Assembly (NCBI RefSeq): GCF_009996735.1
Contig: NZ_JAACYI010000032.1
Location: 1-34,018, forward strand
Length of the DNA: 34,018 bases
DNA from: Cellulomonas sp. APG4
GTDB taxonomy: Bacteria > Actinomycetota > Actinomycetes > Actinomycetales > Cellulomonadaceae
Reading direction: 5' to 3'
Below are positions 1 to 23,036 of this stretch, piece by piece (position 1 is the stretch's first letter; each line of letters starts with the position of its first letter). The notes beneath the pieces are model-generated. The model made no database searches. It saw only the letters and a program-made list of their open reading frames with translations, and was not told the DNA's origin. Made by a program: the position numbers and the translations under genes.

Positions 1-393
1 GACGCCGTCGTCGGCCGCCGCCCCGCGGCGGGCGCGGCCCTGCGGCTCGCGGTGAGCCGGTCGCGCGCGCCTCGGCTGGTCGAGGACGTCCGCTCCGCCC
101 TCGCCGCCGACGTCCGTCCGATGGGATCCGCCGGAGTCAAGGCGATGGCGGTCGTCACCGGGGCCGCGGACGCGTACGTGCACGCAGGTGGGCAGTACGA
201 GTGGGACAGTGCCGCACCGGTGGCCGTCGCCCGCGCGCACGGCCTGCACACCAGCCGGGTCGACGGCTCGCCCCTGGTCTACAACCGCCCCGACCCCTAC
301 CTGCCCGACCTGCTCGTCTGCCGCCCCGAGCACCGCGACCGTCTGCTCGACGTGATCGCGGCGGCCACCGTCACCACGAGGGAGCACCCGTGA
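1..393 (+). CDS. cysQ: 3'(2'),5'-bisphosphate nucleotidase (CysQ), 3' end only
   Basis: The reading frame is open from base 1, so the gene begins before the window; 130 C-terminal residues are visible. The segment GSAGVKAMAVVTGAADAYVH followed by WDSAAP (visible residues 68-73) is the second metal-binding signature of the inositol-monophosphatase superfamily, and the sequence around it fits the CysQ branch. CysQ hydrolyses 3'-phosphoadenosine 5'-phosphate (PAP), the inhibitory by-product of every PAPS-dependent sulfotransferase or PAPS reductase, to AMP in the cytoplasm. Its stop overlaps the cysD start by 4 nt (GTGA), so the genes are probably translationally coupled. The N-terminal metal-binding residues are outside the window. 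A generic inositol phosphatase is the alternative, but cysDN next door favours CysQ. Confidence 0.88.
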   Translation, partial: DAVVGRRPAAGAALRLAVSRSRAPRLVEDVRSALAADVRPMGSAGVKAMAVVTGAADAYVHAGGQYEWDSAAPVAVARAHGLHTSRVDGSPLVYNRPDPYLPDLLVCRPEHRDRLLDVIAAATVTTREHP

Positions 394-1301
394 CACGCAT
401 GCCCGAGTACTCGCTGAGCCAGATCGACCAGCTCGAGGCCGAGTCCGTCTTCGTCCTGCGCGAGGTCGCGGCCGAGTCCGAGAAGCCCGCCCTGCTGTTC
501 TCGGGCGGCAAGGACTCGATCGTGATGCTCGACCTCGCCGTGCGCGCGTTCTGGCCGGCTCCGGTCCCCTTCCCGGTGGTGCACATCGACACCGGGCACA
601 ACTTCCCCGAGGTCCTCGAGTTCCGCGACCGGGTGGTCCGCGAGCTCGGGCTCAACCTCGTCGTCGGCTCGGTCCAGGACGCGATCGACCGCGGCGTCGT
701 GCAGGAGGAGCCGAACGGGTCCCGGAACCGCATCCAGACGCCCGTGCTGCTCGAGACCGCCGAGAAGTACGGCTTCACCGCACTGCTCGGCGGGGCGCGC
801 CGCGACGAGGAGAAGGCGCGCGCCAAGGAACGGGTGTTCTCGTTCCGGGACGAGTTCGGGCAGTGGGACCCGAAGAACCAGCGGCCCGAGCTGTGGAACC
901 TGTACAACGCGCGTGTGCACGTGGGGGAGAGCATCCGCGTGTTCCCCCTGTCCAACTGGACCGAGCTCGACGTCTGGCACTACATCGCCGCCCGCGAGGT
1001 CGCGATCCCCTCGATCTACTACGCGCACGAGCGCGAGGTCTTCGAGCGCAACGGGATGGTCTTCGCGAACAACGAGTTCTGCCGTCCGCGCGCCGGTGAG
1101 GAGACGTTCGTCGAGACGGTGCGGTACCGCACCGTCGGTGACGCGACGCTGACGGCCGCGGTCCGCTCGGACGCGCGCGACGTCGAGGCGGTGATCGCGG
1201 AGGTCGCGGCCACCCGCATCACGGAGCGAGGTGCGACCCGCGGGGACGACAAGGTCAGCGAGGCCGCCATGGAGGACCGCAAGAAGGAGGGCTACTTCTG
1301 A
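390..1301 (+). CDS. cysD: sulfate adenylyltransferase subunit 2 (CysD)
   Basis: CysD is the small catalytic subunit of ATP sulfurylase. It transfers AMP from ATP to sulfate, giving adenosine 5'-phosphosulfate (APS), with the energy supplied by GTP hydrolysis on CysN. The 303-residue product has the expected family length. The PP-loop SGGKDS is at residues 38-43, and GGARRDEEKARAKER and the C-terminal NNEFCRPRAGEETFVETVRY block are characteristic. I chose GTG at 390 because it overlaps the cysQ stop by 4 nt; ATG at 399 is the alternative, three codons later. The stop shares one base with the cysN start. No cysH accompanies it here, so the APS may go to PAPS for sulfation rather than only to cysteine synthesis. 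Confidence 0.95.
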   Translation: MTRMPEYSLSQIDQLEAESVFVLREVAAESEKPALLFSGGKDSIVMLDLAVRAFWPAPVPFPVVHIDTGHNFPEVLEFRDRVVRELGLNLVVGSVQDAIDRGVVQEEPNGSRNRIQTPVLLETAEKYGFTALLGGARRDEEKARAKERVFSFRDEFGQWDPKNQRPELWNLYNARVHVGESIRVFPLSNWTELDVWHYIAAREVAIPSIYYAHEREVFERNGMVFANNEFCRPRAGEETFVETVRYRTVGDATLTAAVRSDARDVEAVIAEVAATRITERGATRGDDKVSEAAMEDRKKEGYF

Positions 1302-2551
1302 TGGAGCTGCTGCGATTCGCCACGGCGGGTTCGGTCGACGACGGCAAGAGCACGCTGATCGGACGTCTGCTCTACGACTCGAAGTCGATCTTCAACGACC
1401 AGCTCGACTCGATCGAGGAGACGAGCCGTTCGCGCGGGGACGCGTACACCGATCTCGCGCTCCTCACGGACGGCCTGCGGGCCGAGCGTGAGCAGGGAAT
1501 CACGATCGACGTCGCCTACCGGTACTTCGCGACACCGCGGCGCAAGTTCATCATCGCGGACACCCCTGGGCACATCCAGTACACGCGGAACATGGTGACG
1601 GGCGCGTCGACCGCAGACCTCGCGATCGTGCTCGTGGACGCACGCAAGGGGATCCAGGAGCAGAGCCGACGGCACGCGTTCCTCGTCTCGCTGCTGCGCG
1701 TGCCGCACCTCGTGCTCGCGATCAACAAGATGGACCTCGTCGACTGGTCACAGGAGGTCTACGAGCAGATCAAGGACGAGTTCACCAACTTCGCGGCCAA
1801 GCTCGACATCGCCGACCTCACCGTCCTGCCGATCTCGGCCCTCAAGGGCGACAACGTCGTGACCCGCTCGGCGAACATGCCCTGGTTCGAGGGGCCGTCG
1901 CTGCTGCACCACCTCGAGAACGTGCACATCGCGAGCGACCGCAACCTCGTCGACGCCCGGTTCCCCGTCCAGTACGTGATCCGCCCGCACCAGGACCGGC
2001 ACCACGACTTCCGGGGCTACGCGGGTCAGGTGGCCGGCGGGATCCTCAAGCCCGGCGACGAGGTCATGGTGCTGCCCTCGGGACTCACCACGCGCATCGC
2101 GTCGATCGAGACGAAGGACGGGCCCGTGGCAGAGGCGTTCGCGCCGATGTCGGTGGTCATCCGCCTCGAGGACGAGCTCGACGTGTCCCGCGGGGACATG
2201 ATCTGCCGAGTCCACAACCAGCCGCAGGTGACGCAGGACGTCGAGGCCATGGTCTGCTGGATGACCGAGCGGCCGCTCGTCCCCGGGCAGAAGCTCGCGG
2301 TCAAGCACACCACCAGGTCCGCACGTGCCTTGGTCAAACGTCTCAGCTACCGAGTCGACGTCAACACGCTCCACCGCGACGACGCGGCGGACTCGCTGGC
2401 CCTCAACCAGATCGGCAGGGTGCGGCTGCGCACGACCACCCCGCTGCTCGCCGACGAGTACCGCCGCAACCGGCTGACCGGGGGGTTCATCCTCGTCGAC
2501 GAGGCGACGAACGTCACCGTCGGTGCCGGGATGATCATCGACACCGACTGA
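1301..2551 (+). CDS. cysN: sulfate adenylyltransferase subunit 1, GTPase (CysN)
   Basis: CysN is the regulatory GTPase of ATP sulfurylase and drives the unfavourable CysD reaction. The 416-residue protein has the EF-Tu-like motifs in order: GSVDDGKST (G1, residues 10-18), the REQGITIDVAYRYF switch I region, DTPGH (G3, from residue 87) and NKMD (G4, residues 142-145), followed by the beta-barrel domains. The ATG overlaps the cysD stop by one base. The protein ends after domain III, without a fused APS kinase (CysC) domain such as is found in NodQ/CysNC proteins. A separate APS kinase is encoded in this window at 20986-22086, so PAPS production is split between two loci on opposite strands. Confidence 0.95.
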   Translation: MELLRFATAGSVDDGKSTLIGRLLYDSKSIFNDQLDSIEETSRSRGDAYTDLALLTDGLRAEREQGITIDVAYRYFATPRRKFIIADTPGHIQYTRNMVTGASTADLAIVLVDARKGIQEQSRRHAFLVSLLRVPHLVLAINKMDLVDWSQEVYEQIKDEFTNFAAKLDIADLTVLPISALKGDNVVTRSANMPWFEGPSLLHHLENVHIASDRNLVDARFPVQYVIRPHQDRHHDFRGYAGQVAGGILKPGDEVMVLPSGLTTRIASIETKDGPVAEAFAPMSVVIRLEDELDVSRGDMICRVHNQPQVTQDVEAMVCWMTERPLVPGQKLAVKHTTRSARALVKRLSYRVDVNTLHRDDAADSLALNQIGRVRLRTTTPLLADEYRRNRLTGGFILVDEATNVTVGAGMIIDTD

Positions 2552-2668: not shown

Positions 2669-2734
2669 CACGATTCGATATCGGCGTGACACAAAAGGGT
2701 GACGCGGAGCGAGCACCCGGACGATGTGAGGTAT

Positions 2735-4342
2735 ATGCGGGTGCACAGGTCTCATACCAGGTCAGGTCGTCGTCCTGCCGTGCGCGTCGGACTTGCGGTG
2801 GGCACGGCCCTCGCGCTGGTCGTCGGTCTCGGCCTGAGCCAGTGGAGCGTGGACCAGGCGGCGGCCGCGTCGCGCGAGCTGGTGGTCAACGGCACGTTCG
2901 ACAAGGGGCTCACGGGGTGGCACGCCACGGGAGCGCGGACGCAGAAGCTCACCGTCGTCAAGACCGGCGGGGGAACCGCCCCGCACGCGCGTCTGACGAC
3001 GTCGAAGACCGCGACCGTCACGCTCAACGACCGGGTCAACACGGTCGCCTCCGCTGCCAAGGGCGAGACCTACCGGGTCACGGCCCGCGTGCGTGCCTCG
3101 GCGCCCAAGGTCAACGGCCAGCTGCGGGTGCGCGAGGTCGCCGGCTCCAAGGTCGTCACGCACGGGACGTCGTTCAACCTGCGCTCGACGGCGTGGACCA
3201 CGGTGAGCCTGACGTTCACGACGCGCCACCCCAAGGCGACCCTCGACCTCAACGTGCTCGCGTGGAGCCTGCGCGCCGGGCAGCGCCTCGACGTCGACAG
3301 CCTGTCGATGCGTGCCGTCCCGCGTACGACGACGCCCCCGAGCACGCCTGCGCCCACCACGGCGCCCACCACGGCACCCCGGCCGACGACGACCCCGACG
3401 GCACCGCCGACGGCGACCCCGACCCCGTCGCCGACCGCGACCCCGCAGCCGACGACGCCCGCGCCCACGCCCACGCCCACGGCCCAGCCGACGAGCGCGC
3501 CGAAGCCGCCCACCGGTGACCGCTGCCAGGCGCCTGTGCCGAGCGGCACGGTCTACGGCGCGAGCATGTCCATGTCGGGCGGAGCCACCGCCGCGTCGGC
3601 ACTCGGATCCCTCGACCAGGCGTTCGGCACGGTGCCCGTGGTGCGGCTGTTCGACCCGGGTCTGCCGGCGTCGTGGTCCTCGCAGCGCGCCGCCGTGACG
3701 TCCGACCGCACCGTCGTCGTCTCGTTCCGGCCCGACCCGGCCGAGGTCAACGCGGGCAAGCACGACGCCGCGCTGCGCGCGTTCTTCACCGAGGCGCCCA
3801 GCGACCAGACGATCTACTGGTCCTACATCCACGAGCCCGAGCCGATGATCGACCAGGGCCAGTTCACGGCGGCCGAGTACCGCAAGGCGTGGCAGCGGAT
3901 CGCCGGCTTCGAGCGTGAGGCGTGCAAGGCCAACATGTACGCGACCCTCATCCTGACGGGCTGGACCGCGTCGCCGTCCTCGGGCCGCTCGGTCGACACC
4001 TACTACGCGGGTGACTCGATCATCGACGTCGTCGCGTGGGACCCGTACAACGGGGTCCACGACCCGGACCGTGACTACTACGCGAGCGCCGAGTCGATGT
4101 TCGGCTCCGTGGTCGCGGCGTCGAAGGAGCTCGGCAAGCCGTTCGCGATCGCCGAGACCGGCAGCCGTCGCGTCGCGGGTGACGACGGGACCGGCCGCGC
4201 CCGGTGGCTCACCGAGATCGGCACGTACCTCGACAAGCACGACGCGGTCTTCGTGACGTACTTCCAGTCGACGCGCGACGCCAACTGGGTGCTCGACGAC
4301 AAGCCGTCGCGTGACGCGTGGGCGAGGTTCACCGGACGCTGA
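2735..4342 (+). CDS. secreted GH26-like glycoside hydrolase with N-terminal binding module
   Basis: The 535-residue protein has a signal or anchor segment (about residues 14-47, hydrophobic core GLAVGTALALVVGLGL), a beta-sandwich module resembling CBM4/9-type carbohydrate-binding domains (about 48-197), a Pro/Thr linker (about 198-260) and a TIM-barrel-like catalytic region (261-535). The region carries YIHEPE (Glu367 as possible acid/base) and IAETGS (Glu474 as possible nucleophile), an arrangement like GH26 beta-mannanase and related families. ATG 2735 is preferred because the signal segment follows it directly; GTG 2699 would add 12 residues. It lies between the sulfate-activation and polysaccharide genes and is preceded by two shared-motif copies, so it may trim or remodel the surface polysaccharide. 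Substrate is unknown, and family assignment is by motif only. Confidence 0.72.
   Translation: MRVHRSHTRSGRRPAVRVGLAVGTALALVVGLGLSQWSVDQAAAASRELVVNGTFDKGLTGWHATGARTQKLTVVKTGGGTAPHARLTTSKTATVTLNDRVNTVASAAKGETYRVTARVRASAPKVNGQLRVREVAGSKVVTHGTSFNLRSTAWTTVSLTFTTRHPKATLDLNVLAWSLRAGQRLDVDSLSMRAVPRTTTPPSTPAPTTAPTTAPRPTTTPTAPPTATPTPSPTATPQPTTPAPTPTPTAQPTSAPKPPTGDRCQAPVPSGTVYGASMSMSGGATAASALGSLDQAFGTVPVVRLFDPGLPASWSSQRAAVTSDRTVVVSFRPDPAEVNAGKHDAALRAFFTEAPSDQTIYWSYIHEPEPMIDQGQFTAAEYRKAWQRIAGFEREACKANMYATLILTGWTASPSSGRSVDTYYAGDSIIDVVAWDPYNGVHDPDRDYYASAESMFGSVVAASKELGKPFAIAETGSRRVAGDDGTGRARWLTEIGTYLDKHDAVFVTYFQSTRDANWVLDDKPSRDAWARFTGR
3320..3515 (+). repeat. Pro/Thr-rich linker repeat
   Basis: Low-complexity coding sequence made of short units such as CCCACG and ACGCCCCCG encodes a (Pro/Thr/Ala)n linker between the binding module and the catalytic domain. 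Linkers of this kind are common in actinobacterial secreted polysaccharidases. Confidence 0.85.
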
Positions 4343-4351: not shown

Positions 4352-4397
4352 GTGCTGAGGCCGTCGCACCCGGCGCAGGGTGCGACGGCCTCAGCAC
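4352..4397. terminator. bidirectional terminator, 20-bp perfect stem
   Basis: Arms 4352-4371 (GTGCTGAGGCCGTCGCACCC) and 4378-4397 are perfect reverse complements around the 6-base loop GGCGCA. The hairpin begins 9 bases after the stop of the secreted GH-like gene and overlaps the last codons of the convergent membrane-protein gene, so it can end both transcripts. No T-run follows. Confidence 0.8.
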
Positions 4398-5005: not shown

Positions 5006-5120
5006 GTGCCCACCTCCTCCGACGACGTCCCGCGGCACGGCGCGGGGAGCACCCGACCTCTCGGCGTGATCCTCGCACGCCGAGCCGCGGACGCGCCCGC
5101 AGCCTGACCTGCAGGATCGG

Positions 5121-5135
5121 TAGGTTTGCGCGGTG
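5121..5135 (+). promoter_or_regulatory. possible -10 for leaderless flippase transcript
   Basis: TAGGTT (5121-5126) ends six bases before the GTG start at 5133, the spacing expected for a leaderless actinobacterial mRNA. No Shine-Dalgarno sequence or convincing -35 is visible. Confidence 0.3.
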
Positions 5136-6656
5136 AGCACGTCGACCCGCAGCCTCGCGGCCGCCTCCGGGGCCAGCTTCGTGGGCGCGATGGTCAGCGC
5201 GGGTGCGGGTTTCCTCCTGACCCTCGTCCTGGGCCGGACGCTCGGACCGGGCGGTGCTGGGGTCGTGCTCCAGACGATCGGCGTCCTGACGATCGCCGTC
5301 GGGGTGGGCAAGGTCGGGCTCGACACCACGGCGATCTGGTTGCTGCCGCGCACCCGGGCCGACGAGCCTGCGGCCGTGCGCGGCGTCGTCCGCGGGCTGC
5401 TCGTGGCCGGGTTCTGCGCCTCGCTCGTGGTGGCCGGGGTGCTGGCGCTGCTCGCGCCGTGGCTGTTCGCCGGTCCGGGATCGGCGCAGGTGCTCGAGGC
5501 CGTCCGTGCGACGGCGTGGTTCCTGCCCGCCGCCGTGGTCGCGACCGTGGGCCTGGCCGCCACCCGTGGGCTCGGCGGGATCGGCCCCTACACCCTGATC
5601 GGCAGCATCGCGGTGCCCGGGTCGCGGCCCCTGCTCGTGCTCGTGGTCGGTGCGCTCGGGGGCGGCGCGGTCGCGGCCGCGGTGTCGTGGGTCGCCGTGC
5701 TCGCCGTCGCGCTGGTGCCCGTGGCGCTCGTGCTGCGCTCGCGCGTCCGGCGGGTCGAGCGCGCCGCGGACGTGGGCGCGGCGCTGCCGCTCGAGCGCGC
5801 CGTGGTGGTGCGTGCGGCGCGCTTCACGCTCCCACGCTCGCTCTCGTCGGCGATCGAGCTCGCACAGCAGTGGCTCGACGTCATCCTCGTGGGTGCCCTG
5901 GCCGGGCCTGCGGCGGCGGGCGTCTACGGCGCCGCGACGAGGTTCGTCGCGGCGGGCATGGTGCCCAGCACCTCGCTCAGGGTGGTCGTCGCGCCGCAGT
6001 TCAGTGCTGCCCTGCACGCGGGGGACACCGGCACGGCCGAGGACGTCTACCGACGCACCACGTCGTGGATCGTCCTGCTCAGCCTGCCCGTGTACGCACT
6101 CCTCGCGCTGTTCGGCGGGACCGTGCTCTCGCTCCTGGGCCCCGAGTTCCGCGCCGGCGCCGCGCTGCTGCCCGTGCTCGGCGCAGGGGCGGCGATCTCG
6201 GTCATGACGGGCAACGTGCAGTCGCTGCTGCTCATGAGCGGTCGCAGCGGCTGGGTCGCGGTGAACAAGGCCGTCGTGCTGGCCGTGCTCGTGATCGGGC
6301 TGGTGGCCGCGATCCCGCTTCTCGGGCTGCCGGGCGCGGCCCTGGCGTGGGCGGTCGCGGCGACGACGGACGCGGCGCTCGCCTCGACCCAGGTGTCCCG
6401 GCTGCTGCGCATCCGCCTCGAGCTCGGGGTGCTCGCCACCGCGTTCGGCGCGTCCGCCGTTCCCTACCTGGTGGCGGGCGGCGTGGCGCGCTGGTGGCTC
6501 GGTGACTCGGTCGAGGGGCTCGTCGTCGGCGCAGCGGTAGGGTCCGTGCTGTTCGTCGCCGCGACCTGGGCCCTGCGTGGCCGGCTCGACGTCCAGGGGG
6601 CCTTCCGGCTCCTGCGCCGCCGCGGTGGCGGCACCCCACGAGAGGAGACCCGGTGA
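5133..6656 (+). CDS. Wzx-type polysaccharide flippase (MOP superfamily)
   Basis: The 507-residue integral membrane protein has some 12-14 hydrophobic segments, beginning with ASFVGAMVSAGAGFLLTLVL. The N-terminal pattern GRTLGPGGAGVVLQTIGV is typical of MOP-superfamily oligosaccharide flippases (Wzx/RfbX/MurJ relatives). Wzx proteins move the lipid-linked repeat unit across the cytoplasmic membrane before Wzy polymerisation, and a Wzy-type gene is present downstream (13730-15154). The GTG start is assigned from the homologous N-terminus; no good ribosome site precedes it. The stop overlaps the sulfotransferase start by 4 nt, coupling export to sulfation. MurJ itself is less likely in this context. 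Confidence 0.85.
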   Translation: MSTSTRSLAAASGASFVGAMVSAGAGFLLTLVLGRTLGPGGAGVVLQTIGVLTIAVGVGKVGLDTTAIWLLPRTRADEPAAVRGVVRGLLVAGFCASLVVAGVLALLAPWLFAGPGSAQVLEAVRATAWFLPAAVVATVGLAATRGLGGIGPYTLIGSIAVPGSRPLLVLVVGALGGGAVAAAVSWVAVLAVALVPVALVLRSRVRRVERAADVGAALPLERAVVVRAARFTLPRSLSSAIELAQQWLDVILVGALAGPAAAGVYGAATRFVAAGMVPSTSLRVVVAPQFSAALHAGDTGTAEDVYRRTTSWIVLLSLPVYALLALFGGTVLSLLGPEFRAGAALLPVLGAGAAISVMTGNVQSLLLMSGRSGWVAVNKAVVLAVLVIGLVAAIPLLGLPGAALAWAVAATTDAALASTQVSRLLRIRLELGVLATAFGASAVPYLVAGGVARWWLGDSVEGLVVGAAVGSVLFVAATWALRGRLDVQGAFRLLRRRGGGTPREETR

Positions 6657-7549
6657 AGCTGGTCAGCTCGACCCACAAGGCGGCCCCCCGGTGGCTCAAG
6701 GACGTCGCGAACGTCACCACGCGCCGGTACGGCATGCTCACGGCCGGCGACCGGCCGATGCCCGACTACCTGATCGTGGGCGCCAAGCGGGCGGGGACGA
6801 CGTCGCTGTTCAACTACCTCGTGCGGCACCCGGGTGTGCTCCAGATGTTCCCGCAGGTGCGCGGGACCAAGAGCACCGACTACTTCTTCCCCGGCAGCGG
6901 CCGGTCCGAGCGGTGGTACCGCTCGCACTTCGCGACGGAGCGTGACCGTCGCCGCCGCGCGCGGGACCTCGGCTACCGGCCGCTGAGCGGCGAGGCCTCG
7001 CCCTACTACGTGTGGGACCCGCGCATCGCGCCGGCCGTGCGCGCGGCCGCCCCGGACGTGCGGGCCATCCTCCTGCTGCGTGAGCCGGTGCGTCGCGCGT
7101 GGTCGCACTACCAGGAGCGGGTCCAGAACGGCGTCGAGCCGCTGAGCTTCCGCGACGCGCTCGACGCCGAGGAGGAGCGGCTGAGCGGCGAGCGGGAGCG
7201 CATGGCCGCGGACCCGGAGTACTACAGCGCGGCGTTCGACTTCCACAGCTACCGCTCGCGCGGCGACTACCTGCCCCAGATCCGCAACTGGCTCGAGCAC
7301 TTCCCGGCCGAGCAGCTGCTCGTCCTGCGCGCCGAGGACCTGTACGGCGACACCCAGGCCACGTTCGACGAGGTCTGCAAGTTCCTGCGGCTCCCGCGCA
7401 TCGAGATGCCGACGCGTTCGTCCTTCAACGCGACGTGGCGCACGCGCGACCTCCCGCCCGAGTCCGAGGCCGCCGAGCTCGCCGAGTGGTTCGGGCCTCG
7501 CAACGCGGCGCTCGAGGAGTTCCTCGGCCGCGACCTCGGCTGGGGCTGA
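6653..7549 (+). CDS. PAPS-dependent sulfotransferase
   Basis: The 298-residue cytoplasmic sulfotransferase belongs to the Sulfotransfer_1/heparan-sulfate type. The 5'-phosphosulfate-binding loop is YLIVGAKRAGTTSL (GAKRAGTTS, residues 43-51) and the 3'-phosphate-binding motif is LLLREPVRRAWSHYQ (Arg143 onward). GDYLPQIRNWLEHFPAEQLL and VLRAEDLYGD are further family landmarks. It would transfer sulfate from PAPS to a sugar hydroxyl or amine and release PAP. GTG at 6653 overlaps the flippase stop by 4 nt, so its substrate is probably the exported glycan or its lipid-linked precursor. It converges on the chain-length gene, leaving only 4 bases between stops. Acceptor position and sugar cannot be read from sequence. 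Confidence 0.88.
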   Translation: MKLVSSTHKAAPRWLKDVANVTTRRYGMLTAGDRPMPDYLIVGAKRAGTTSLFNYLVRHPGVLQMFPQVRGTKSTDYFFPGSGRSERWYRSHFATERDRRRRARDLGYRPLSGEASPYYVWDPRIAPAVRAAAPDVRAILLLREPVRRAWSHYQERVQNGVEPLSFRDALDAEEERLSGERERMAADPEYYSAAFDFHSYRSRGDYLPQIRNWLEHFPAEQLLVLRAEDLYGDTQATFDEVCKFLRLPRIEMPTRSSFNATWRTRDLPPESEAAELAEWFGPRNAALEEFLGRDLGWG

Positions 7550-9379: not shown

Positions 9380-9409
9380 TTGTGGCGGCTCGAGCGGCGC
9401 CGCTAGCGT
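9380..9409 (+). promoter_or_regulatory. promoter of the phosphotransferase–glycosyltransferase operon
   Basis: TTGTGG (9380-9385), an 18-base spacer and TAGCGT (9404-9409) predict a start near 9416 and a 26-base leader containing the ribosome site GAGGGA (9432-9437) before ATG 9442. Confidence 0.4.
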
Positions 9410-9441
9410 CACCCGGACCACCGGCCGAGACGAGGGATCCG

Positions 9442-10767: not shown

Positions 10768-10789
10768 CGACTTGGGAGGTTCGGCTCAC

Positions 10790-10795
10790 TACGCT
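10790..10795 (+). promoter_or_regulatory. possible internal -10
   Basis: TACGCT lies 32 bases before the PssD-like start, in the 59-base gap after the phosphotransferase. No good -35 is present, so this is only a possible internal promoter. Confidence 0.22.
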
Positions 10796-10826
10796 GGACG
10801 GACACCCAGCCGGACCGGAGCTCACC

Positions 10827-15154: not shown

Positions 15155-15651
15155 CCCTGCTCGCCCAGCTGCGCGAGGACGTGCGCGCGAACCGAGGCCA
15201 GACCAAGGGGCAGCTCGTCGTCGCGGCGTACCGTGTGGCGCACGCGGTGCGACGCCCGCTCGACCGCCGCCCGCAGCCGTGGGCCCTGCCCGTGGGGGTG
15301 CTCTACCGCGTGCTCGTCGAGTGGGTGCTCACCGTCGAGATCCCGTGGGGGACGGTCGTGGGCCGCAGGCTCCGCGTGTTCCACGGTGCCGGCATCGTGG
15401 TCAACGACCGCACGGTCCTGGGGGACGACGTCACCCTGCGCCAGAACGTGACCCTGGGCAACGTGCGTCCCGACGGCCCGTGCCCGGTGATCGGTGACCG
15501 GGTCGAGCTCGGCGCGGGCTGCATCGTGCTCGGCGGCATCCGCGTGGGCGACGACGCGCGCGTGGGTGCGGGTGCCGTGGTGACGAAGGACGTCCCGGCG
15601 GGCGCCACGGTCGTCGGCAACCCTGCGCGCATCCTCGAGCCGCGAGCATGA
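15151..15651 (+). CDS. hexapeptide-repeat O-acetyltransferase (serine-acetyltransferase-like)
   Basis: The 166-residue left-handed beta-helix acyltransferase has its helix in the second half, with GRRLRVFHGAGIVVNDRTVLGDDVTLRQ, VTLGN and GDRVELGAGCIVLGGIRVGDDARVGAGAVVTKDVPAG. The family uses acetyl-CoA. It resembles the C-terminal part of CysE but lacks CysE's long helical N-terminus and ends a polysaccharide operon, so O-acetylation of a sugar in the repeat unit is more likely than serine acetylation. Both would be annotated alike by similarity alone. A GAGGAG site (15139-15144) precedes ATG 15151, which overlaps the polymerase stop as ATGA. It is the last gene of the operon begun at 9442. 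Confidence 0.82.
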   Translation: MTLLAQLREDVRANRGQTKGQLVVAAYRVAHAVRRPLDRRPQPWALPVGVLYRVLVEWVLTVEIPWGTVVGRRLRVFHGAGIVVNDRTVLGDDVTLRQNVTLGNVRPDGPCPVIGDRVELGAGCIVLGGIRVGDDARVGAGAVVTKDVPAGATVVGNPARILEPRA

Positions 15652-15771: not shown

Positions 15772-18700
15772 GTGGCCGGTCACACCTGGCGCGCTCGTCG
15801 CGCCCGCGCTGCAGCAGTCGTCGTCGCGGTGCTCGCCTCGGGTGCCGTGGTGCTCCCCGGGACGGCCGCCACGGCCGCCGTCGAGGACCACCCCTACCTG
15901 GACGCGAGCCTCTACACGGGCCTCACGTCGGACACCGCGGCGGCCTCCTGCTGGGAGGTCAAGCAGCTGCACCCCGAGTCACCGAGCGGGGCCTACTGGC
16001 TGCTGACGCCCGAGATGACCGCACCGGCGCAGTTCTGGTGCGACCAGGAGACCGACGGCGGAGGCTGGGTCAAGGTGGCGCACGGGCGCAACGCGTGGGA
16101 GACGCTCGCGGTGGGGCGTGGCAACCCCTCCTCGCTGCTCACGGCCACGCCTGCGGCCAACGCGGTCACGACGCAGCTCCCGGCCCGCACGGTCGACGCA
16201 CTGCTCGACGACGCGCCGGTCGCGTCGCTCGCCGAGGGTGTCCGCATCCGGCGTGCGGCGAGCATCGACGGGAGCTCGTGGCAGGAGGTGCGGATGCGCT
16301 ACCTCCGGCTCGACGACTGGGGCTGGACCATGGGCGCGAGCCACCAGCTCGCGGGGTGGACCGTGGGTGGGCTCAACGGCTCGGGCGGCTCGAGCTCGAG
16401 CTTCGGCTCCGGCTCGTCGAGCTCCAGGGTCGACACGAGCATCGGGACCAACCACCAGTACACGTGGGGCTTCTCGTACGGCAACGGAGTCACGGGTTCG
16501 AGCGCGGCGACCAGCTACCTGTGGACCCCGACCGACGGCCAGGGCGGTGCCCGCCCGTTCGCCGAGGTCTACGTGCGTCCGCGCCTGCTGACGGCCGAGC
16601 TGACGTTCCCGGTCGTCCCGAACCAGGGCACCTCCGCCATCGAGCAGGAGCAGGTGCCCGACTCGCTCGCCCTGCCCAGCTCGTGGGGCGTGGCGGGGCT
16701 CGCGGGCTCCACCTCGGGTGAGGGCAACGTCGAGGTGCAGGCGCTCGCCCAGGTCGGCAACGTCATGTATGTGGGCGGCAACTTCCGCTACGTGCAGCAG
16801 AACGCGTCGGGCTCGGGCCGCGTCGAGCAGAGCTACCTCGCGGCCTTCAACGCCACCACCGGGGCGTACATCCCCGGCTTCACGCCCACCTTCGACGAGG
16901 CCGTGCAGGCGCTCACGGCCCTGCCGGACGGCCGTCTGGCCGTGGGCGGCAAGTTCTCGCAGGTCAACGGGAGCTCGGCGAACGGCCTCGTGGTGCTCAA
17001 CTCCAACGGGTCGCGAGCGTCGGGCTGGACGGCGAACCTGGTCAACAACGTCTCGCCCGGCGTGGCGAGCCTGCGCACGCTGCACGCCGAGGGCGACTGG
17101 CTCTACATCGGCGGCAACTTCACGCACGTGCAGGGCGCGACCGGCAACCAGGTGTACTCGCGCAACGCCGCCCGCGTGGCTGTCGCGAACGGGCAGCCCG
17201 ACGCGAGCTGGCGCCCCGAGTTCACCGGGTCGGTCCGTGACGTCGACGTGGCCGAGGACGGCAGCCGGGCGTACTTCGCGGGCTTCTTCGAGTCGATGGG
17301 TACCGAGACCGCCGAGAACGCGGCGGCCGTCTCGACCAGCTCACCCCCGCAGCTCGACGCGTGGACGCCCGTGTGGAGCGCCGACAAGAGCTACCAGCAG
17401 GGGATCGAGGAGGTGGCCGACCGCGTGTGGGTGGGCGGTTCCGAGCACTCCCTCTTCAGCTGGGACACCTCGACCTACGAGCGCCTGAGCACCCACATCG
17501 CCAACCCCAAGGGCGACTTCCAGGCGGTCGAGGAGGGCAACGGCTTCGTCTTCGCGGGGGCCCACGCCAACAACTTCCTGTACGACGGCGCGACTGCGTG
17601 GCCGAGCGTGGGCAACGGCTGGTCCGTGGTCGACACGATCGGCTGGATCGGCGCGTGGCGCACGGGCGACGCCAAGGTGGTCTCGACCTTCAGCCCGACC
17701 ATGCGCTCGCGCCTGGGCTCGGGCATCTGGGCGATCGAGGTCGCGAGCGACGGCACCGTGTGGGCCGGCGGCGACATCGAGTCCGGACGTGTGACCGGCA
17801 ACGGCAACGGCTGGCTGGGCGGCTTCGCACGCTTCCCGCAGGTCGACGCGACCGCACCGAACGCCCCGGGCAACCTCCGCGTGGGCTCGCAGACGGCGAC
17901 CACCGTGACGCTCGCCTGGAACGCGCCCAGCGGCGGTGTCGGCTCGGGCGGCAGCTACCAGGTGATCCGGGACGACCGCGTGATCGCGACCGCCTCGGGG
18001 ACCTCGCTGACCGTCCCGAAGGGCGGCGGCAACCGCTTCTTCGTGCGGGCGGCCGACGCCGCGGGCAACGTCTCCGCGAGCACCCCGGTGCTGGTGGTGC
18101 CGGGCGGGAACGCGCCCCCGGTCCCGGTGCTCGCCCACAGCGTGGACGGTCTCGACGTCACGTTCGACGCGACCGGATCGACCGACGACCAGGGCGTCGC
18201 GGCCTACTACTGGACCGTCGACGGCACGTCGTCCACCGACGCGACCTTCACGCACACGTTCGTCGCGGGCGGCACGTACCCCGTCACGCTGGTCGTCGTC
18301 GACACCCAGGGTGCGTGGCGGCGCGCCGAGCTGAGCCTCGAGCTCGTGCAGCCGCGACCCGCGGACGCGTACGGCGGCGCCGTCTTCGATGACACCCCGC
18401 TCGCCTACTGGCGCCTCGACGAGACGTCGGGCACCGTCGCGCAGGACGCGGCGACCGGGCAGGCCGTCGGCACCTACCAGGCCGGCGTCACGCAGGGTGA
18501 GGCGACGGCGCTCGTCGGGGTCACGGGTACCTCGGCACGCTTCGACGGGTCGAACGACCAGGTGGTCGCGACGTCCTCGATGCCCGGCCCGACGACGTAC
18601 GCGGCCGAGGCGTGGTTCCGCACCACGACGACGCGGGGCGGGAAGATCTTCGGCTTCGGCAACGCGTCGAGCGGACTGTCGAGCAGCTACGACCGGCACG

Positions 18701-20973
18701 TGTACATGACGAACGACGGGCGTCTCGTCTTCGGCGCCTACACGGGGGTCGAGAACCGCGTCACCTCACCCGCGGCCTACAACGACGGCCAGTGGCACCA
18801 CGTGGTGGCGCAGCAGGGGCCGGCCGGCATGGAGCTGTTCGTCGACGGCGCCCTCGTGGGCAGCGACCCGCAGACCGGGTCGCAGGCGTACACGGGCTAC
18901 TGGCGCGTGGGCGGCGACAGGGTGTGGGGCGGTGCCTCGAGCAGCCACCTCGCGGGCTGGATCGACGAGTTCGCGCTCTACGCGGGACCGCTCAGCGCGC
19001 AGCGCATCGCCCAGCACCACGCGGCGGGCACGGGCGTCGGCAACCAGCTCCCCACGCCGTCGTTCACGGCCGACGTCAGCGACCTCACGGTCGACCTCGA
19101 CGCCTCCGCGAGCGCCGACGTGGACGGCACGGTCGACTCCTACGCCTGGGACCTGGGCGACGGGGCCGCCGCGACGGGGGTCCAGGTCGAGCACGCCTAC
19201 GCGGCGGCGGGCACGTACAACGTGACCCTGACCGTCACTGACGACCAGGGCGCCACGGCACAGCTGTCGCAGCAGGTGACCGTGACCGAGCCGCCGAACC
19301 AGGCGCCGACGGCGTCCTTCACCGCCGACGTCACCGACCTGACGGTCGGCCTCGACGCCTCGGCGAGCAGTGACGCCGACGGCACGGTCGCGGCGTACAC
19401 GTGGGACCTCGGGGACGGCAGCACCGCGACAGGTGCGACCGCCGAGCACACGTACGCCGCGGCGGGTACGTACACCGTCTCCCTGACCGTCACGGACGAC
19501 GACGGCGCGACCGACGTGGCTTCCGAGCAGGTCACGGTGACCGAGCCCGAGGAGCCGGGCGAGCCGGTCGTCTCGACCCCCGTGGCCGAGGACGCGACCT
19601 GGTCCTGGCGCTTCGAGACCGAGGCGCCTCCGGCCGAGTGGAAGACGCTCGGGTTCGACGCGTCCTCGTGGGAGACCGGTGCCGCACCGCTCGGGTGGGG
19701 CTCGTCGGTGGTCACCACGGACATCGACATCGACGGCCCGACGACGGACCGCTCGCGCGCGGCCTACTTCGTGCACGAGCTCGAGATCGCCGATGCGTCC
19801 GACGTCGTGGAGCTCGAGCTCGACTCGATCGCGGACGACGGCGTGGTGATCTACGTCAACGGCACCGAGGTCGTGCGGCACAACATGCGCGACGGCGACG
19901 TCACCCACATGACCTTCGCGCCGAGCGCGCGCAGGTACGCGGTCGCGGCAGCCGACCCCGTGGTGGTCGACGTCCCGGTCGGGCTCCTGGTCGACGGCAC
20001 CAACGTCATCGCGGCCGAGACCCACGTCAACTACCGCGGTACGCCCGACCTCACCTTCCGCCTCGAGGCCACGCTGACGGAGCAGTCCGGCGGTGCGCCG
20101 ACCACCCCGCCGGATGGTGGCGGGGGCGACGGCGGCGGGGGCGACGACGGTGGCACGGGCGAGCCGCCGGCCAACGCGGCACCGACGGCAGCCTTCACGG
20201 CGGCGGCGAGCGACCTCGGTGTGACGCTCGACGCCTCGGGCTCGAGCGACACGGACGGCACCGTGGCCGGGTACGCCTGGGACCTCGGGGACGGGTCGAC
20301 GGCGACGGGGGCGAGCGTCGAGCACACCTACGCCGCGGCCGGCACCTACCCGGTGACGCTCACGGTCACCGACGACGACGGCGCCACGGCGAGCGTGACG
20401 CAGGACGTCGCGGTCACCGCACCGGCCGACCCGGGGGAGCCCGTCGAGGGCGTCGAGTCCACCCTCGTGGCGGCCGACGCGACGTGGGCGTGGCGCTACG
20501 AGGCCGACGCCCCGCCGGCCGAGTGGAACCAGCCGGGCTTCGACGCGTCGTCGTGGGAGACCGGAGGCGCGACGCTGGGCTTCGACGCCCCGGTGGTCGT
20601 CACCGACATCGACATCGACGGGCCCACGTCGGACCGACCGCGGGCCGCGTACTTCCGGCACGAGGTCGAGATCCCGGACGCCTCGGCCGTGCAGCGGCTC
20701 GTGCTCGACTCGGTCGCGGACGACGGCGTGGTGATCTACGTGAACGGCACCGAGGTGGTGCGGCACAACATGCGCGACGGCGAGGTCACGCACCTCACCT
20801 ACGCGCCGAGCGCACGCAACCACCTCGTCGCGGCCGACGACCCGGTGGTCGTCGAGGTGCCGCTCGAGCTGCTCGTCGACGGCGTCAACGTGATCGCGGC
20901 CGAGACCCACGTCAACTACCGGGCGACCCGGGACCTCACGTTCCGGCTCGAGGCGACGATGACGGCCGTCTGA
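15772..20973 (+). CDS. giant secreted multidomain protein (fibrinogen-like, propeller, Fn3, PKD, LamG, jelly-roll)
   Basis: The 1733-residue protein has a signal peptide (1-36). Domains in order, with rough limits: fibrinogen-like (59-275; Cys60, WCDQETDGGGW at 89-99); seven-blade-like propeller with recurring VGGNF/VGGKF strands (315-690); Fn3 (694-777); PKD (782-860); LamG/concanavalin-like (872-1085, AYWRLDETSG); two PKDs (1092-1258, YxWDLGDG); jelly-roll-like module (1267-1438, DDGVVIYVNGTEVVRHNM); Gly/Asp linker (1442-1465); PKD (1467-1551); second jelly-roll module (1563-1733). There is no sortase motif, C-terminal helix or SLH domain, so it is released or held by binding glycan. All modules are of binding type and no catalytic motif was seen. 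A role as surface adhesin or polysaccharide-bound scaffold is inferred from domains and neighbours. Confidence 0.85.
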   Translation: MAGHTWRARRARAAAVVVAVLASGAVVLPGTAATAAVEDHPYLDASLYTGLTSDTAAASCWEVKQLHPESPSGAYWLLTPEMTAPAQFWCDQETDGGGWVKVAHGRNAWETLAVGRGNPSSLLTATPAANAVTTQLPARTVDALLDDAPVASLAEGVRIRRAASIDGSSWQEVRMRYLRLDDWGWTMGASHQLAGWTVGGLNGSGGSSSSFGSGSSSSRVDTSIGTNHQYTWGFSYGNGVTGSSAATSYLWTPTDGQGGARPFAEVYVRPRLLTAELTFPVVPNQGTSAIEQEQVPDSLALPSSWGVAGLAGSTSGEGNVEVQALAQVGNVMYVGGNFRYVQQNASGSGRVEQSYLAAFNATTGAYIPGFTPTFDEAVQALTALPDGRLAVGGKFSQVNGSSANGLVVLNSNGSRASGWTANLVNNVSPGVASLRTLHAEGDWLYIGGNFTHVQGATGNQVYSRNAARVAVANGQPDASWRPEFTGSVRDVDVAEDGSRAYFAGFFESMGTETAENAAAVSTSSPPQLDAWTPVWSADKSYQQGIEEVADRVWVGGSEHSLFSWDTSTYERLSTHIANPKGDFQAVEEGNGFVFAGAHANNFLYDGATAWPSVGNGWSVVDTIGWIGAWRTGDAKVVSTFSPTMRSRLGSGIWAIEVASDGTVWAGGDIESGRVTGNGNGWLGGFARFPQVDATAPNAPGNLRVGSQTATTVTLAWNAPSGGVGSGGSYQVIRDDRVIATASGTSLTVPKGGGNRFFVRAADAAGNVSASTPVLVVPGGNAPPVPVLAHSVDGLDVTFDATGSTDDQGVAAYYWTVDGTSSTDATFTHTFVAGGTYPVTLVVVDTQGAWRRAELSLELVQPRPADAYGGAVFDDTPLAYWRLDETSGTVAQDAATGQAVGTYQAGVTQGEATALVGVTGTSARFDGSNDQVVATSSMPGPTTYAAEAWFRTTTTRGGKIFGFGNASSGLSSSYDRHVYMTNDGRLVFGAYTGVENRVTSPAAYNDGQWHHVVAQQGPAGMELFVDGALVGSDPQTGSQAYTGYWRVGGDRVWGGASSSHLAGWIDEFALYAGPLSAQRIAQHHAAGTGVGNQLPTPSFTADVSDLTVDLDASASADVDGTVDSYAWDLGDGAAATGVQVEHAYAAAGTYNVTLTVTDDQGATAQLSQQVTVTEPPNQAPTASFTADVTDLTVGLDASASSDADGTVAAYTWDLGDGSTATGATAEHTYAAAGTYTVSLTVTDDDGATDVASEQVTVTEPEEPGEPVVSTPVAEDATWSWRFETEAPPAEWKTLGFDASSWETGAAPLGWGSSVVTTDIDIDGPTTDRSRAAYFVHELEIADASDVVELELDSIADDGVVIYVNGTEVVRHNMRDGDVTHMTFAPSARRYAVAAADPVVVDVPVGLLVDGTNVIAAETHVNYRGTPDLTFRLEATLTEQSGGAPTTPPDGGGGDGGGGDDGGTGEPPANAAPTAAFTAAASDLGVTLDASGSSDTDGTVAGYAWDLGDGSTATGASVEHTYAAAGTYPVTLTVTDDDGATASVTQDVAVTAPADPGEPVEGVESTLVAADATWAWRYEADAPPAEWNQPGFDASSWETGGATLGFDAPVVVTDIDIDGPTSDRPRAAYFRHEVEIPDASAVQRLVLDSVADDGVVIYVNGTEVVRHNMRDGEVTHLTYAPSARNHLVAADDPVVVEVPLELLVDGVNVIAAETHVNYRATRDLTFRLEATMTAV
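19300..20970 (+). repeat. tandem duplication of a PKD + jelly-roll unit (about 0.88 kb)
   Basis: The PKD plus jelly-roll segment at about 19300-20085 recurs at about 20170-20970. Corresponding bases are 876 apart in the PKD part and 885 apart in the jelly-roll part; the difference and the Gly/Asp linker at about 20095-20165 mark the junction. Stretches such as ATCTACGT[C/G]AACGGCACCGAG are nearly identical at DNA level, so the duplication is recent or kept uniform by gene conversion. Confidence 0.88.
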
Positions 20974-20985
20974 CGCGGCGGCGCG

Positions 20986-22086
20986 TCAGCCCAGCAGGGC
21001 GGCGATCCGCCGCACGGCGTCCTCGACGCCGACCTCGGACGTGTCGAGCACGAGGTCGGCGTCGAGCGGCTCCTCGTACGGGTCGTCGATCCCGGTGAAG
21101 CCGGTGATCTCCCCGGCCCGGGCGCGCGCGTACAGGCCCTTGCGATCGCGCGCCTCGCACACCTCGATCGGCGTCGAGACGTGCACGAGCACGAGCCGGC
21201 CGTGCGGCTCGACGAGCTCGCGCATCTCGGCGCGCACCCGCGCGTACGGTGCGATGGGGGCGCACAGGGCGATGCCCCCGTGCCGGGCGACCAGGCCCGC
21301 GACCCAGGCGATGCGCAGGAGGTTGGTCCGCCGGTCCTCGGGCGAGAAACCCAGACCAGCGCTGAGGTGACGGCGCACCTCGTCGCCGTCGAGCAGCGTC
21401 ACCTCACGCGGGTCGTGGCGCAGCAGGTGGTCCGCGAGGGCGCGCGCGACCGTGGACTTGCCCGAGCCGGACAGCCCGGTGAGGAGCACGACGACACCGT
21501 CGCCACGACGGTGCCCGGCGACCCCCGTGCAACGGTCGACCACGCGGGCGCCCGCGGCCAGGCGCGTCAGCGCCTCTCGGCGCAGGGGGGTCGTGTCGGC
21601 CCGGGACGGCAGGACCAGCAGCTCGACCGGGGCGCTCCCGCCGAGAACGCGCTCGGCGCGGTCGAGCAGGGCGAGCGTCTCCCGCTCCGGCGCCCGGGCG
21701 GACGCGACGACCACGACGCGCGCCCCGGCGCCGAGGTCGGCGAGCTCGGTGCGGATCTGAGTCAGGTGGACCTCGTCGAGGCCGTCGAGGGCGAGCACGG
21801 GTGCGCGGCGGGGACGCGCGCGCCGCCCGCGCGCGACGCCGCCCTCGACCGGGCGGCCGGCGACCGGGCGACCGCGCACGACGATCACGCCGTCGCGCGC
21901 CTCGGTGTGCTCGGCGACGAGGCGGCCCACGGGCGTGCCCCCGCGGTCCTCGAGCACGAGCTCCACGGGCACGCCGTCGGCCGGGTGGGTGTGGGCGAGC
22001 CGCACGGCCAACGACGGCTCGGCCGTGAGGCCCGCGAGGTGCAGCTCGAGCTCGGCGAGCTCGTCGTCGTCCAGCACGTGGCTCAC
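20986..22086 (-). CDS. cysC: adenylyl-sulfate (APS) kinase with long N-terminal extension
   Basis: The 366-residue protein's C-terminal 170 residues are a full APS kinase: Walker A GLSGSGKST (204-212), LLDGDEVRRHLSAGLGFS, RRTNLLRIAWVAGLVARHGG and the lid DRKGLYARARAGEITGFTGI. It phosphorylates APS to PAPS, the donor for the two sulfotransferases here. The first 195 residues are not kinase. ELHLAGL...PVELVLEDRGGTPVGRL recalls the PUA-like part of ATP sulfurylase (Sat) and HLTQIRTELADLGAGARVVVV its catalytic-domain remnant, but the sulfurylase active-site QxRNP and HxxH motifs are not visible, so this half is probably inactive or regulatory. The start is GTG 22086, overlapping the permease stop by 4 nt. 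The stop lies 12 bases from the convergent giant gene. Confidence 0.9.
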   Translation of the reverse strand: MSHVLDDDELAELELHLAGLTAEPSLAVRLAHTHPADGVPVELVLEDRGGTPVGRLVAEHTEARDGVIVVRGRPVAGRPVEGGVARGRRARPRRAPVLALDGLDEVHLTQIRTELADLGAGARVVVVASARAPERETLALLDRAERVLGGSAPVELLVLPSRADTTPLRREALTRLAAGARVVDRCTGVAGHRRGDGVVVLLTGLSGSGKSTVARALADHLLRHDPREVTLLDGDEVRRHLSAGLGFSPEDRRTNLLRIAWVAGLVARHGGIALCAPIAPYARVRAEMRELVEPHGRLVLVHVSTPIEVCEARDRKGLYARARAGEITGFTGIDDPYEEPLDADLVLDTSEVGVEDAVRRIAALLG

Positions 22087-23036
22087 CGGCCGACCTCCTC
22101 GAGCGCGCGGCGCGCGCGACGCTCGCGCTCCTCCGTGAGCGCCAGCGCGGGGAAGCCGTGCCGACGACGCACGAGCATCCAGGCGGCCGGCGCGACCAGG
22201 AGGGCGCCCACCAGCAGCAGGGCGGCGTGCGCGTCACCCACGCCGAGAAGCTTGAGGGCGCTCGCGAGCAGGATGAACGCGAGGGCCCGCCGGACGAACC
22301 CGCCGCGCAGGCGCGCGGACAGCTGGGCGCCGATCCACACGCCGGGGATGCTCCCGATCAGCAGGGGTGCCGCGACCGTGAGGTCGAGCTCGCCGAACAG
22401 CGCGTGGCTCAGGGCGGCGGCCGCGACGAGCGGGACGGCCTGGACCAGGTCCGTGCCGACCAGCTGGCTCGCCTTGAGCCCGGGGTAGAGCAGCATGAGC
22501 CCGATGATGATGAGCGAGCCCGAGCCCACCGAGGTCATGCCCACCACGAGTCCGCCGACGACGCCCAGCAGCACGGTGGGGAGCCGGCGCACCTCGACGT
22601 CGGGCCGGTCGGACGGCAGCGGCTCGGCGCTGCCGTCGCGTCGGCGCGCGCGCTCGATCAGACGCATGTAGGCGCGGACGGTCAGGCCCAGCGCCGTGAC
22701 GAGGAGCGCGACGCCGAGCGCGGTCTTGATCGCCGCCTGGACGCCGTCACCCTCGCCGAGGGCGCGCAGCACGAGGACGCCGCAGAACGCGGAGGGCACG
22801 GCACCGACGGCGAGCCACAGCACGAGCCGCAGGTTGACGGTGCCGTGCCGCAGGTGGACCACCGAGCCGACGGGCTTCATGACCGCGCTCGCGAGCAGGT
22901 CGCTCGAGACGGCGGTGAGCGGCGGGACGTTGAAGAAGAGCACGAGCACGGGCGTCATCAGCGCACCGCCGCCCATGCCCGTGAGGCCCACGACGATGCC
23001 GATGCCGAAGGCGGCGGCGACGAGGGTGGCGTCCAT
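22083..23036 (-). CDS. TauE/SafE-family membrane permease
   Basis: The 317-residue membrane protein has about eight helices and the two family repeats: GIGIVVGLTGMGGGALMTPVLVL near the N-terminus and GVVGGLVVGMTSVGSGSLIIIGL after a charged central loop. LVGTDLVQAVPLVAAAALSHALFG and GSIPGVWIGAQLSARL are further landmarks. Family members move sulfite, sulfate, sulfoacetate or taurine-derived anions. Overlap with the APS kinase gene implies that the transported anion feeds, or relieves, sulfate activation; direction is not determinable. ATG 23036 is chosen by homology of the N-terminus (MDATLVAAAFG); the nearest purine-rich sequence directly abuts it, so the true start is somewhat uncertain. Confidence 0.85.
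   Translation of the reverse strand: MDATLVAAAFGIGIVVGLTGMGGGALMTPVLVLFFNVPPLTAVSSDLLASAVMKPVGSVVHLRHGTVNLRLVLWLAVGAVPSAFCGVLVLRALGEGDGVQAAIKTALGVALLVTALGLTVRAYMRLIERARRRDGSAEPLPSDRPDVEVRRLPTVLLGVVGGLVVGMTSVGSGSLIIIGLMLLYPGLKASQLVGTDLVQAVPLVAAAALSHALFGELDLTVAAPLLIGSIPGVWIGAQLSARLRGGFVRRALAFILLASALKLLGVGDAHAALLLVGALLVAPAAWMLVRRRHGFPALALTEERERRARRALEEVGR

Follow-up and report, generated by a model that had tools for sequence, protein, structure and literature searches.

A Wzx/Wzy-type locus flanked by sulfate-activation genes as a candidate source of sulfated surface polysaccharide in Cellulomonas sp. APG4

What do genes for sulfate activation do when they flank a surface-polysaccharide locus in an actinomycete? 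The question is raised by a stretch of 34,018 bases from Cellulomonas sp. APG4, hereafter the window, which is the whole of contig C25 in a genome of 3.74 Mb (48 contigs, 99.98% complete). The genes named in a preliminary description of this DNA were recovered at or near the places assigned to them, by Pfam and NCBIfam profile matches to the open reading frames. With a probability of roughly 0.84, we read the window as a Wzx/Wzy-type surface-polysaccharide locus that has a dedicated supply of the sulfate donor 3'-phosphoadenosine 5'-phosphosulfate (PAPS) and sulfates its polymer. Beyond the gene content itself, a dedicated donor supply beside the locus, as first proposed in that description, is supported by the co-occurrence of sulfotransferase and sulfate-activation genes in related genomes, by a single CysD in a genome without a match to the reductase CysH, and by a tree in which this CysD groups apart from CysH-linked copies.

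CysD, CysN, an adenosine 5'-phosphosulfate (APS) kinase and CysQ occur together in the window. The small subunit of ATP sulfurylase, cysD (399..1301, +; TIGR02039, 422.7 bits), and its GTPase subunit, cysN (1301..2551, +; TIGR02034, 583.2 bits), which has no fused kinase, both exceed their profile cut-offs. They follow the C-terminal part of cysQ, the gene of a 3'-phosphoadenosine 5'-phosphate (PAP) phosphatase, which is truncated by the contig start (1..393, +; PF00459, E 1.9e-11; TIGR01331, 51 bits, under the whole-protein cut-off of 228.8). The separate APS kinase of the preliminary description is borne out (20986..22086, -; PF01583, 191.5 bits, E 1.1e-56, at residues 197-348; TIGR00455, 180.1 bits, over cut-off), the protein being additionally extended at its N-terminus, and it adjoins a TauE/SafE permease with a putative role in sulfate or sulfonate transport (22083..23036, -; PF01925, 158.4 bits, E 3.2e-46).

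This set appears to activate sulfate in a cell that does not reduce it. The window's CysD is the sole PF01507 match in the whole genome, and CysH was not found there by the PF01507 search, which succeeded in all 14 control genomes. The lack of cysH and of a sulfite reductase gene in the window, already noted from the sequence, thus extends for CysH to the genome, and a second, assimilatory sulfate-activation set, whose presence elsewhere had been left open, was not found in it. With the NIR_SIR profile no sulfite reductase of the strong kind was found in the genome; its sole match (E 2.9e-24, in a 937-amino-acid open frame) looks NirB-like, and matches of the same kind occur in congeners without CysH. 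Within the genus, matches of about E 1e-40 are present only in G119 and G089, both carriers of CysH. Of 17 genomes of the genus tested for PF01507, 14 have no match, two (G089 and G119) have adjacent CysD and CysH, and the window's has CysD alone; because 14 of 17 are without a match, reduced or organic sulfur is probably the main supply for the genus. An APS kinase above 100 bits occurs in one of 19 genomes of the genus, the window's, all other matches being below 24 bits. The CysH translation of G089 (L014) contains CC and CxxC stretches, which we take to be those typical of APS reductases.

Both sulfation and assimilatory reduction use cysDN. Corynebacterium glutamicum lacks CysC, and its CysH functions as APS reductase; in the authors' view, as given in the sections consulted, at least 11 further actinomycetes have a pathway of this type (PMC1266029). 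Because CysH of C. glutamicum reduces APS without CysC, an APS kinase apart from CysH in this group points to PAPS for sulfation; the rule is not absolute, since four genomes of the order hold cysC within an assimilatory array. Since the genome search yielded no CysH, the activated sulfate would have no known route to cysteine, and the cassette would serve sulfation only.

A tree of CysD bears on the same distinction. Its 40 rows, 38 of them different (rows with fewer than 250 aligned residues or with stops were excluded), split at 100/99 support into 15 CysH-linked and 25 other rows, the window being among the 25. The split was read from the printed tree, and it shows that the groups differ and says nothing on their frequency, the 15 CysH-linked rows being 11 regions picked for two adjacent PF01507 matches plus four assimilatory arrays. 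Rows from sulfation-type cassettes are included on the non-CysH side, and CysD of the congeners G089 and G119 lies on the CysH-linked side, apart from the window's. Three genomes (G121, G433 and G468) have one CysD beside CysH and another elsewhere; both copies of G121 and of G468 are in the tree, on opposite sides. The window's CysD is consequently not grouped with reductive assimilation, either by its genome, which has no CysH match, or by its side of the tree. According to the preliminary description, it would tell against a sulfation role if the cysDN and cysC genes were the only set and always sat with cysH in relatives lacking the sulfotransferases. They are indeed the only set found, but the CysD copies that group with the window's are not CysH-linked. 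Because the rows nearest to the window are those of Arthrobacter, G401 and Frigoribacterium, the tree suggests that the cassette moves horizontally.

The co-occurrence of sulfotransferases with sulfate-activation genes, which the preliminary description proposed to look for in relatives, was found across 347 genomes of the order. Homologues of the first sulfotransferase of the window, ST1 (E <= 1e-3), are present in 35 of them and APS kinase (E <= 1e-15) in 62; APS kinase occurs in all 35 ST1 genomes against 27 of 312 without ST1 (Fisher's test, 2e-31). Kinship was handled by genus count only, which gives 17 of 17 ST1 genera against 9 of 87 others (2e-13). Similarly, APS kinase is found in all 42 genomes with an over-cut-off Sulfotransfer_3 match against 20 of 305 without. 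The genes are also linked, with APS kinase or CysD no more than 40 kb from ST1 in 14 of the 22 genomes with ST1 above 100 bits, where about 1.2 would be expected.

The 63 APS-kinase copies fall into 4 that have CysH at a distance of 5 kb or less, 41 that have CysD but not CysH nearby (10 kb and 5 kb being the respective limits), and 18 that are farther away or on other contigs. CysD and CysH were separated here by match length, with G317 as a manual assignment to CysD; G290:C238:35-577, which lies at the edge of a contig, was counted as CysH, though it may be a truncated CysD. All four CysH-near kinases belong to arrays of the form SiR-cysH-cysC-cysD-cysN (SiR, sulfite reductase), in genomes without ST1 or over-cut-off Sulfotransfer_3; the kinase follows CysH in these arrays, leaving no space for an N-terminal domain. 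Five of the 62 APS-kinase genomes have no match of CysH length (G000, G401, G184, G165 and G218), and G218 is without ST1. Six further kinase places have no ST1 in the stretch read (L174-L179, in G121, G216, G024, G004, G239 and G395). These carry cysD, cysN and an N-extended kinase in six of six cases, cysQ in five, tauE in four and a CysH-type match above threshold in none; five of the genomes are ST1-negative in the 347-genome scan and G121 is not in that sample.

The acceptor side of the putative pathway begins with two sulfotransferases. Both domains have 5'-phosphosulfate-type loops, as described from the sequence: the stretches KRAGTTS and RSGSTLL are readable in the translations, together with REPVRRAWS and RDPIGVAYS, and we take the former two to be the 5'-phosphosulfate loops and the latter two the second motif. 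ST1 (6653..7549, +; PF13469, E 2.9e-12) matches a bacterial sulfotransferase, 3rnl, in the PDB at E 9e-20 and the heparan sulfate 3-O-sulfotransferase (3-OST) 3-OST-3 at E 2e-13. Its AlphaFold2 (AF2) model has a predicted local distance difference test score (pLDDT) of 89.1, and Foldseek returned 3rnl, 3-OST and the N-sulfotransferase NDST with template modelling (TM) scores of 0.6-0.7 on the query. By sequence and fold alike, its closest PDB entries are thus 3rnl and heparan sulfate 3-O- and N-sulfotransferases, and sequence and predicted structure together give a sulfotransferase fold with a PAPS site present. The second sulfotransferase, ST2, is also present, not as a separate protein but as the C-terminal half of a fusion with a PssE-type glycosyltransferase (11309..12751, +; PssE, 58.4 bits, under cut-off, at residues 12-141; PF13469, E 2.1e-11, at 178-413). 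No sequence match to ST2 was found in the PDB. In G401, the PssE and ST2 halves match at separate places and are not fused.

Between the sulfate-activation genes lie the components of a Wzx/Wzy-dependent locus. A Wzx-type flippase (5133..6656, +; PF01943, E 7.1e-8; PF13440, E 3.7e-7) and a Wzy-type polymerase (13730..15154, +; PF04932, E 2.9e-8) exceed their Pfam cut-offs and are accompanied by a GT2 glycosyltransferase (12744..13730, +; PF00535, E 8.7e-18) and by PssD and PssE, which both score under their NCBIfam cut-offs. PssD is a PssD/Alg14-type glycosyltransferase subunit of uncertain start (10686..11312, +; NF041549, 107.4 bits against a cut-off of 110; PF08660, E 8.1e-12); PssD and PssE also resemble the glucuronosyltransferase WelK, far below its cut-off. 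A Wzz-like chain-length protein, in which a kinase domain was not detected, is encoded on the opposite strand (7554..9251, -; PF02706, E 0.0021, 18.7 bits, under cut-off). A hexapeptide-repeat acetyltransferase (15151..15651, +; PF00132, E 1.6e-11) precedes a large secreted protein with PKD, LamG and beta-propeller domains (15772..20973, +; PF18911, E 3.1e-75; PF13385, E 1.2e-18; PF17164, E 7.5e-7).

To the genes listed previously, we add PssD, a kinase-like protein and a GH26-like enzyme. The kinase-like protein, which resembles the APH fold and whose start is uncertain (9382..10767, +), has no Pfam match and contains HGDLVPWN and WDWE stretches, presumably the APH-like motifs. The GH26-like enzyme is a secreted protein with a CBM_4_9 domain (2699..4342, +; PF02018, E 1.5e-11), for whose C-terminal part, at residues 427-538, a PDB search returned endoglucanase H (E 3e-5), which we take to be a GH26 enzyme; the Pfam scan of the protein gave no GH family match. 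Spurious gene calls were considered as an explanation for the inventory and are ruled out by the guanine-plus-cytosine content at codon positions.

Comparable loci can be recognized elsewhere. At 19 places with ST1 homologues, read over stretches of 7.6 to 38 kb, window-like genes include wzx at 16, wzz at 15, wzy at 14, GT2 and the kinase-like gene at 13 each and the GH26-like gene at 10, and at least one of cysD, cysN and cysC is present at 9. G401, from another family, has homologues of the full set bar the acetyltransferase within about 26 kb. In a named collection, we considered the best 80 of at least 552 ST1 relatives over about 10 kb around ST1, with thresholds set by hand and some contigs short; three of these loci (L084, L093 and L103) are probably the same as G197:C59, G303:C270 and G290:C302. 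These 80 have window-like wzx in 61, wzy, GT2 and the kinase-like gene in 53 each, cysD in 14, cysN in 13 and APS kinase in 7, and neither cysH nor a sulfite reductase gene was found in any of them over that distance. They come from Micromonospora, Nocardioides, Arthrobacter, Ornithinimicrobium, Actinomadura, Kineosporia and others, and the gene comparisons indicate that comparable loci recur in several actinomycete families. Relatives of ST1 (about 40%) also occur in Oscillatoriaceae cyanobacteria (L134 and L135), where neither a window-like Wzx nor window-like cys genes lie in the surrounding 10 kb.

The N-terminal extension of the APS kinase protein, about 190 residues ahead of the kinase, deserves separate attention. 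For a profile built from 15 sequences of this domain, the first four PDB matches are ATP sulfurylases (E 0.002-0.0045), followed by a sulfurylase-kinase (0.03). We take the four to be one protein, the yeast sulfurylase, and they count as one finding because they are probably a single protein. Pfam gave marginal PUA_2 matches in 3 of the 15 sequences and nothing else. The AF2 model of the protein has a mean pLDDT of 75, its N-terminal domain being weaker, and Foldseek of the whole model placed a fungal ATP sulfurylase and bifunctional sulfurylase-kinases at the top with poor superposition (TM 0.37-0.46 on the query, root-mean-square deviation about 16), a match that is partly borne by the kinase domain. 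With moderate confidence, profile and model comparisons identify the N-terminal part as a degenerate, pseudo-sulfurylase domain fused to a kinase predicted to work. ATP-sulfurylase activity of the protein itself was considered and rejected: the stretch QTRNPMHRAH, presumably the sulfurylase active-site motif, has no equivalent in any of the 13 N-terminal parts compared, which contain neither Q.RN nor RNP. One of the 13 (L150) has HPSH near the start of this part.

From these parts the following route may be drawn, in which the catalysis, the order of steps, the transporter substrate and the sulfation of the polymer are all predicted. TauE would import sulfate or a related anion, CysDN would turn sulfate into APS, and the APS kinase would convert APS into PAPS. 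PssDE, GT2 and other enzymes would build a lipid-linked repeat unit, on which cytosolic ST1 and ST2 would place sulfate, with CysQ clearing the PAP. Wzx would then flip the repeat unit, Wzy and Wzz would polymerise it, and the secreted GH26-like enzyme could trim or free the polymer.

The logic of such an arrangement is familiar from rhizobial nodPQ and nodH, where a sulfotransferase for an exported glycan signal has its own sulfate activation; the product there is a small lipo-oligosaccharide signal, unlike the polymer proposed here. In the parts of the literature consulted, nodH is also recorded from Frankia cluster II (PMC5059922), and sulfated polysaccharides of bacteria are otherwise ascribed to cyanobacteria (PMC13390465, PMC8205485), some marine Gram-negatives (PMC11641403, PMC11766843) and Kiritimatiellae (PMC7356697). 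The capsule clusters of Cobetia marina KMM 1449 and Vibrio sp. KMM 8419 resemble the window in holding PAPS genes (cysN/C, cysD, cysQ and a permease, or a second cysNDC) and sulfotransferases within a polysaccharide cluster, and their capsule structures have been determined and are sulfated; they differ in being Gram-negative, ABC-transporter capsules, with CysC fused to CysN in Cobetia (PMC11766843, PMC11641403). The xss cluster of Synechocystis 6803 likewise has two sulfotransferases in a Wzx/Wzy-type exopolysaccharide cluster, and sulfate was measured in its product, synechan; this is a cyanobacterium, and a term search of the paper returned neither PAPS nor APS kinase nor ATP sulfurylase (PMC8205485).

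The earlier statement that sulfated glycans are little described in actinomycetes needs a qualifier, given a proposal of June 2026 for Actinoplanes missouriensis (PMC13390465). According to the sections consulted, Tezuka and Ohnishi deleted its wps-1 cluster, also gene by gene, and predicted a sulfated exopolysaccharide (PMC13390465). A mutant of the sulfotransferase gene wpsH had squashed sporangia, as in Wzx, Wzy and Wzz mutants, and deletion of AMIS_7390, of the sulfate-adenylyltransferase/APS-kinase family and adjoining wps-1, caused unexpected severe sporangium defects (PMC13390465). PAPS supply for the sulfotransferases would be a simple explanation of the AMIS_7390 mutant by analogy with the window, a connection that the authors do not make in those sections (PMC13390465). 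The published description of wps-1 lists GT2, two sulfotransferases (one of heparan-sulfate type), GH26, Wzx, a kinase-like protein, Wzy, Wzz and the APS-kinase-family neighbour; all have counterparts in the window by comparison with that description rather than with the sequence, although the kinase-like counterpart is recognized from presumed APH-like motifs only, and those of Wzz and GH26 from weak matches. Unlike the window, wps-1 has GT26, a methyltransferase and a DUF4262 gene, whereas the window has PssD, PssE fused to ST2, an acetyltransferase and, in the same locus, cysQ, cysD, cysN and tauE. The window is therefore not the first such proposal, wps-1 preceding it; it represents a known category with a different gene set. 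No other actinomycete sulfated-polysaccharide locus, and no account of the CysD split, was found among the matches listed from the literature searched, which excluded most subscription papers and all preprints.

Could the proximity of cys and polysaccharide genes be fortuitous? Many relatives, for example all Micromonospora loci seen, have no window-like cys genes within 10 kb of ST1, but adjacency by chance is scarcely credible given linkage within 40 kb in 14 of 22 genomes against about 1.2 expected, the nearly complete set of G401 in another family, and the 35 of 35 co-occurrence of ST1 with APS kinase. It is very improbable, too, that the cysQDN/C genes belong to assimilatory sulfate reduction, as a part of it or as a remnant, and merely lie beside a polysaccharide locus. 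Such a role would be compatible with cysDN being common to both pathways and with the four arrays of the order that include cysC, but it accords poorly with a genome without a CysH match or a strong sulfite-reductase match, with a CysD that stands apart from the CysH-linked CysD of the congeners G089 and G119, and with an N-extended kinase for which those four arrays have no room. Alternatively, PAPS might be made for sulfation of something other than the Wzx/Wzy polymer, such as a glycolipid, a secondary metabolite, a wall polymer or the large secreted PKD protein. Rhizobial and mycobacterial sulfotransferases act on lipo-oligosaccharides, according to the part of the source consulted (PMC8205485), and the cassette type can serve other purposes, because six cassettes with the N-extended kinase have no ST1 in the stretch read. 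We nevertheless consider another acceptor quite unlikely, as window-like Wzx and Wzy accompany ST1 in 61 and 53 of the 80 best named relatives, the window joins ST2 and a PssE-like glycosyltransferase in one protein (as G401 does not), ST1 models best on 3rnl and 3-OST/NDST, and the A. missouriensis wpsH mutant shares its squashed sporangia with the Wzx, Wzy and Wzz mutants (PMC13390465).

Several observations weigh against a locus that sulfates its own polymer. Eight of the 22 ST1 genomes are unlinked within 40 kb, and because 66 of the 80 best named relatives, including all Micromonospora loci, have no window-like cysD within 10 kb, the linkage of cysD with ST1 is frequent and not universal. 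Of the 62 APS-kinase genomes, 20 are without over-cut-off Sulfotransfer_3, 4 of them being the assimilatory arrays and 16 unexplained. A congener outside the 347-genome sample, G050, has an over-cut-off Sulfotransfer_3 match (48.1 bits; L010, G050:C2:244078-244455) with no PF01507 match and no real APS kinase (21 bits), and G014 has a CysH-type match 6.6 kb from ST1. In a sequence alignment, the glutamate that we take to be the catalytic base of 3-OST is not at the aligned position of ST1. The Wzz match of the window stays below the Pfam cut-off, and a priming transferase and nucleotide-sugar genes are absent among the window's open reading frames scanned, the rest of the genome not having been searched. 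Finally, sporangia of the A. missouriensis mutant in the other sulfotransferase gene, wpsB, look normal, though fewer spores are released, in the account consulted (PMC13390465).

Taken jointly, the data permit a broader reading, which we offer tentatively and at somewhat below even odds. Actinomycetes might possess a module devoted to sulfation alone, made up of cysQ-cysD-cysN, in many cases tauE, and APS kinase with a pseudo-ATP-sulfurylase domain, that is phylogenetically distinct, moves horizontally and plugs into surface-polysaccharide loci; this species and a few more would use sulfate activation for nothing else. The product may be a glycosaminoglycan-like sulfated polymer, considered because PssD and PssE weakly resemble a glucuronosyltransferase and ST1 is of heparan-sulfate type, and the pseudo-sulfurylase domain may be a docking site for CysDN or a means of channelling APS. 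Beyond the one genetic hint of 2026, the comparisons indicate a recurrent system in several actinomycete families, and they suggest the N-extended APS kinase together with a CysD outside the CysH-linked group as its genomic marker. They also provide a possible reason why loss of the APS-kinase-family gene damages the sporangia of A. missouriensis. A strain in which sulfate is activated but seemingly cannot be reduced would be a clean host, in which a sulfate label should mark sulfated products only.

Between the GH26-like gene and wzx, a 251-amino-acid open reading frame (4352-5107, +) has no Pfam match and was left out of the parts list; an open frame on the opposite strand (4391-5128, -) looks like a proline-rich membrane-anchored protein, also with no Pfam match. 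The edge of the locus is formed by a secreted LamG protein (23242..24021, +; PF02210, E 2.6e-5), with mfd and other housekeeping genes from 24141 onward. Upstream of mfd in 11 congeners (L159-L169, 2 to 16 kb each), no ST1 or cys matches were found; large PKD-type proteins match there in six of the 11, and two (L162 and L165) have Pfam matches to GT2, acyltransferases, Wzz and a UDP-sugar dehydrogenase. Judged from this gene content, the genus seems to have a variable surface-glycan site upstream of mfd, which would hold a sulfated version in the window's species.

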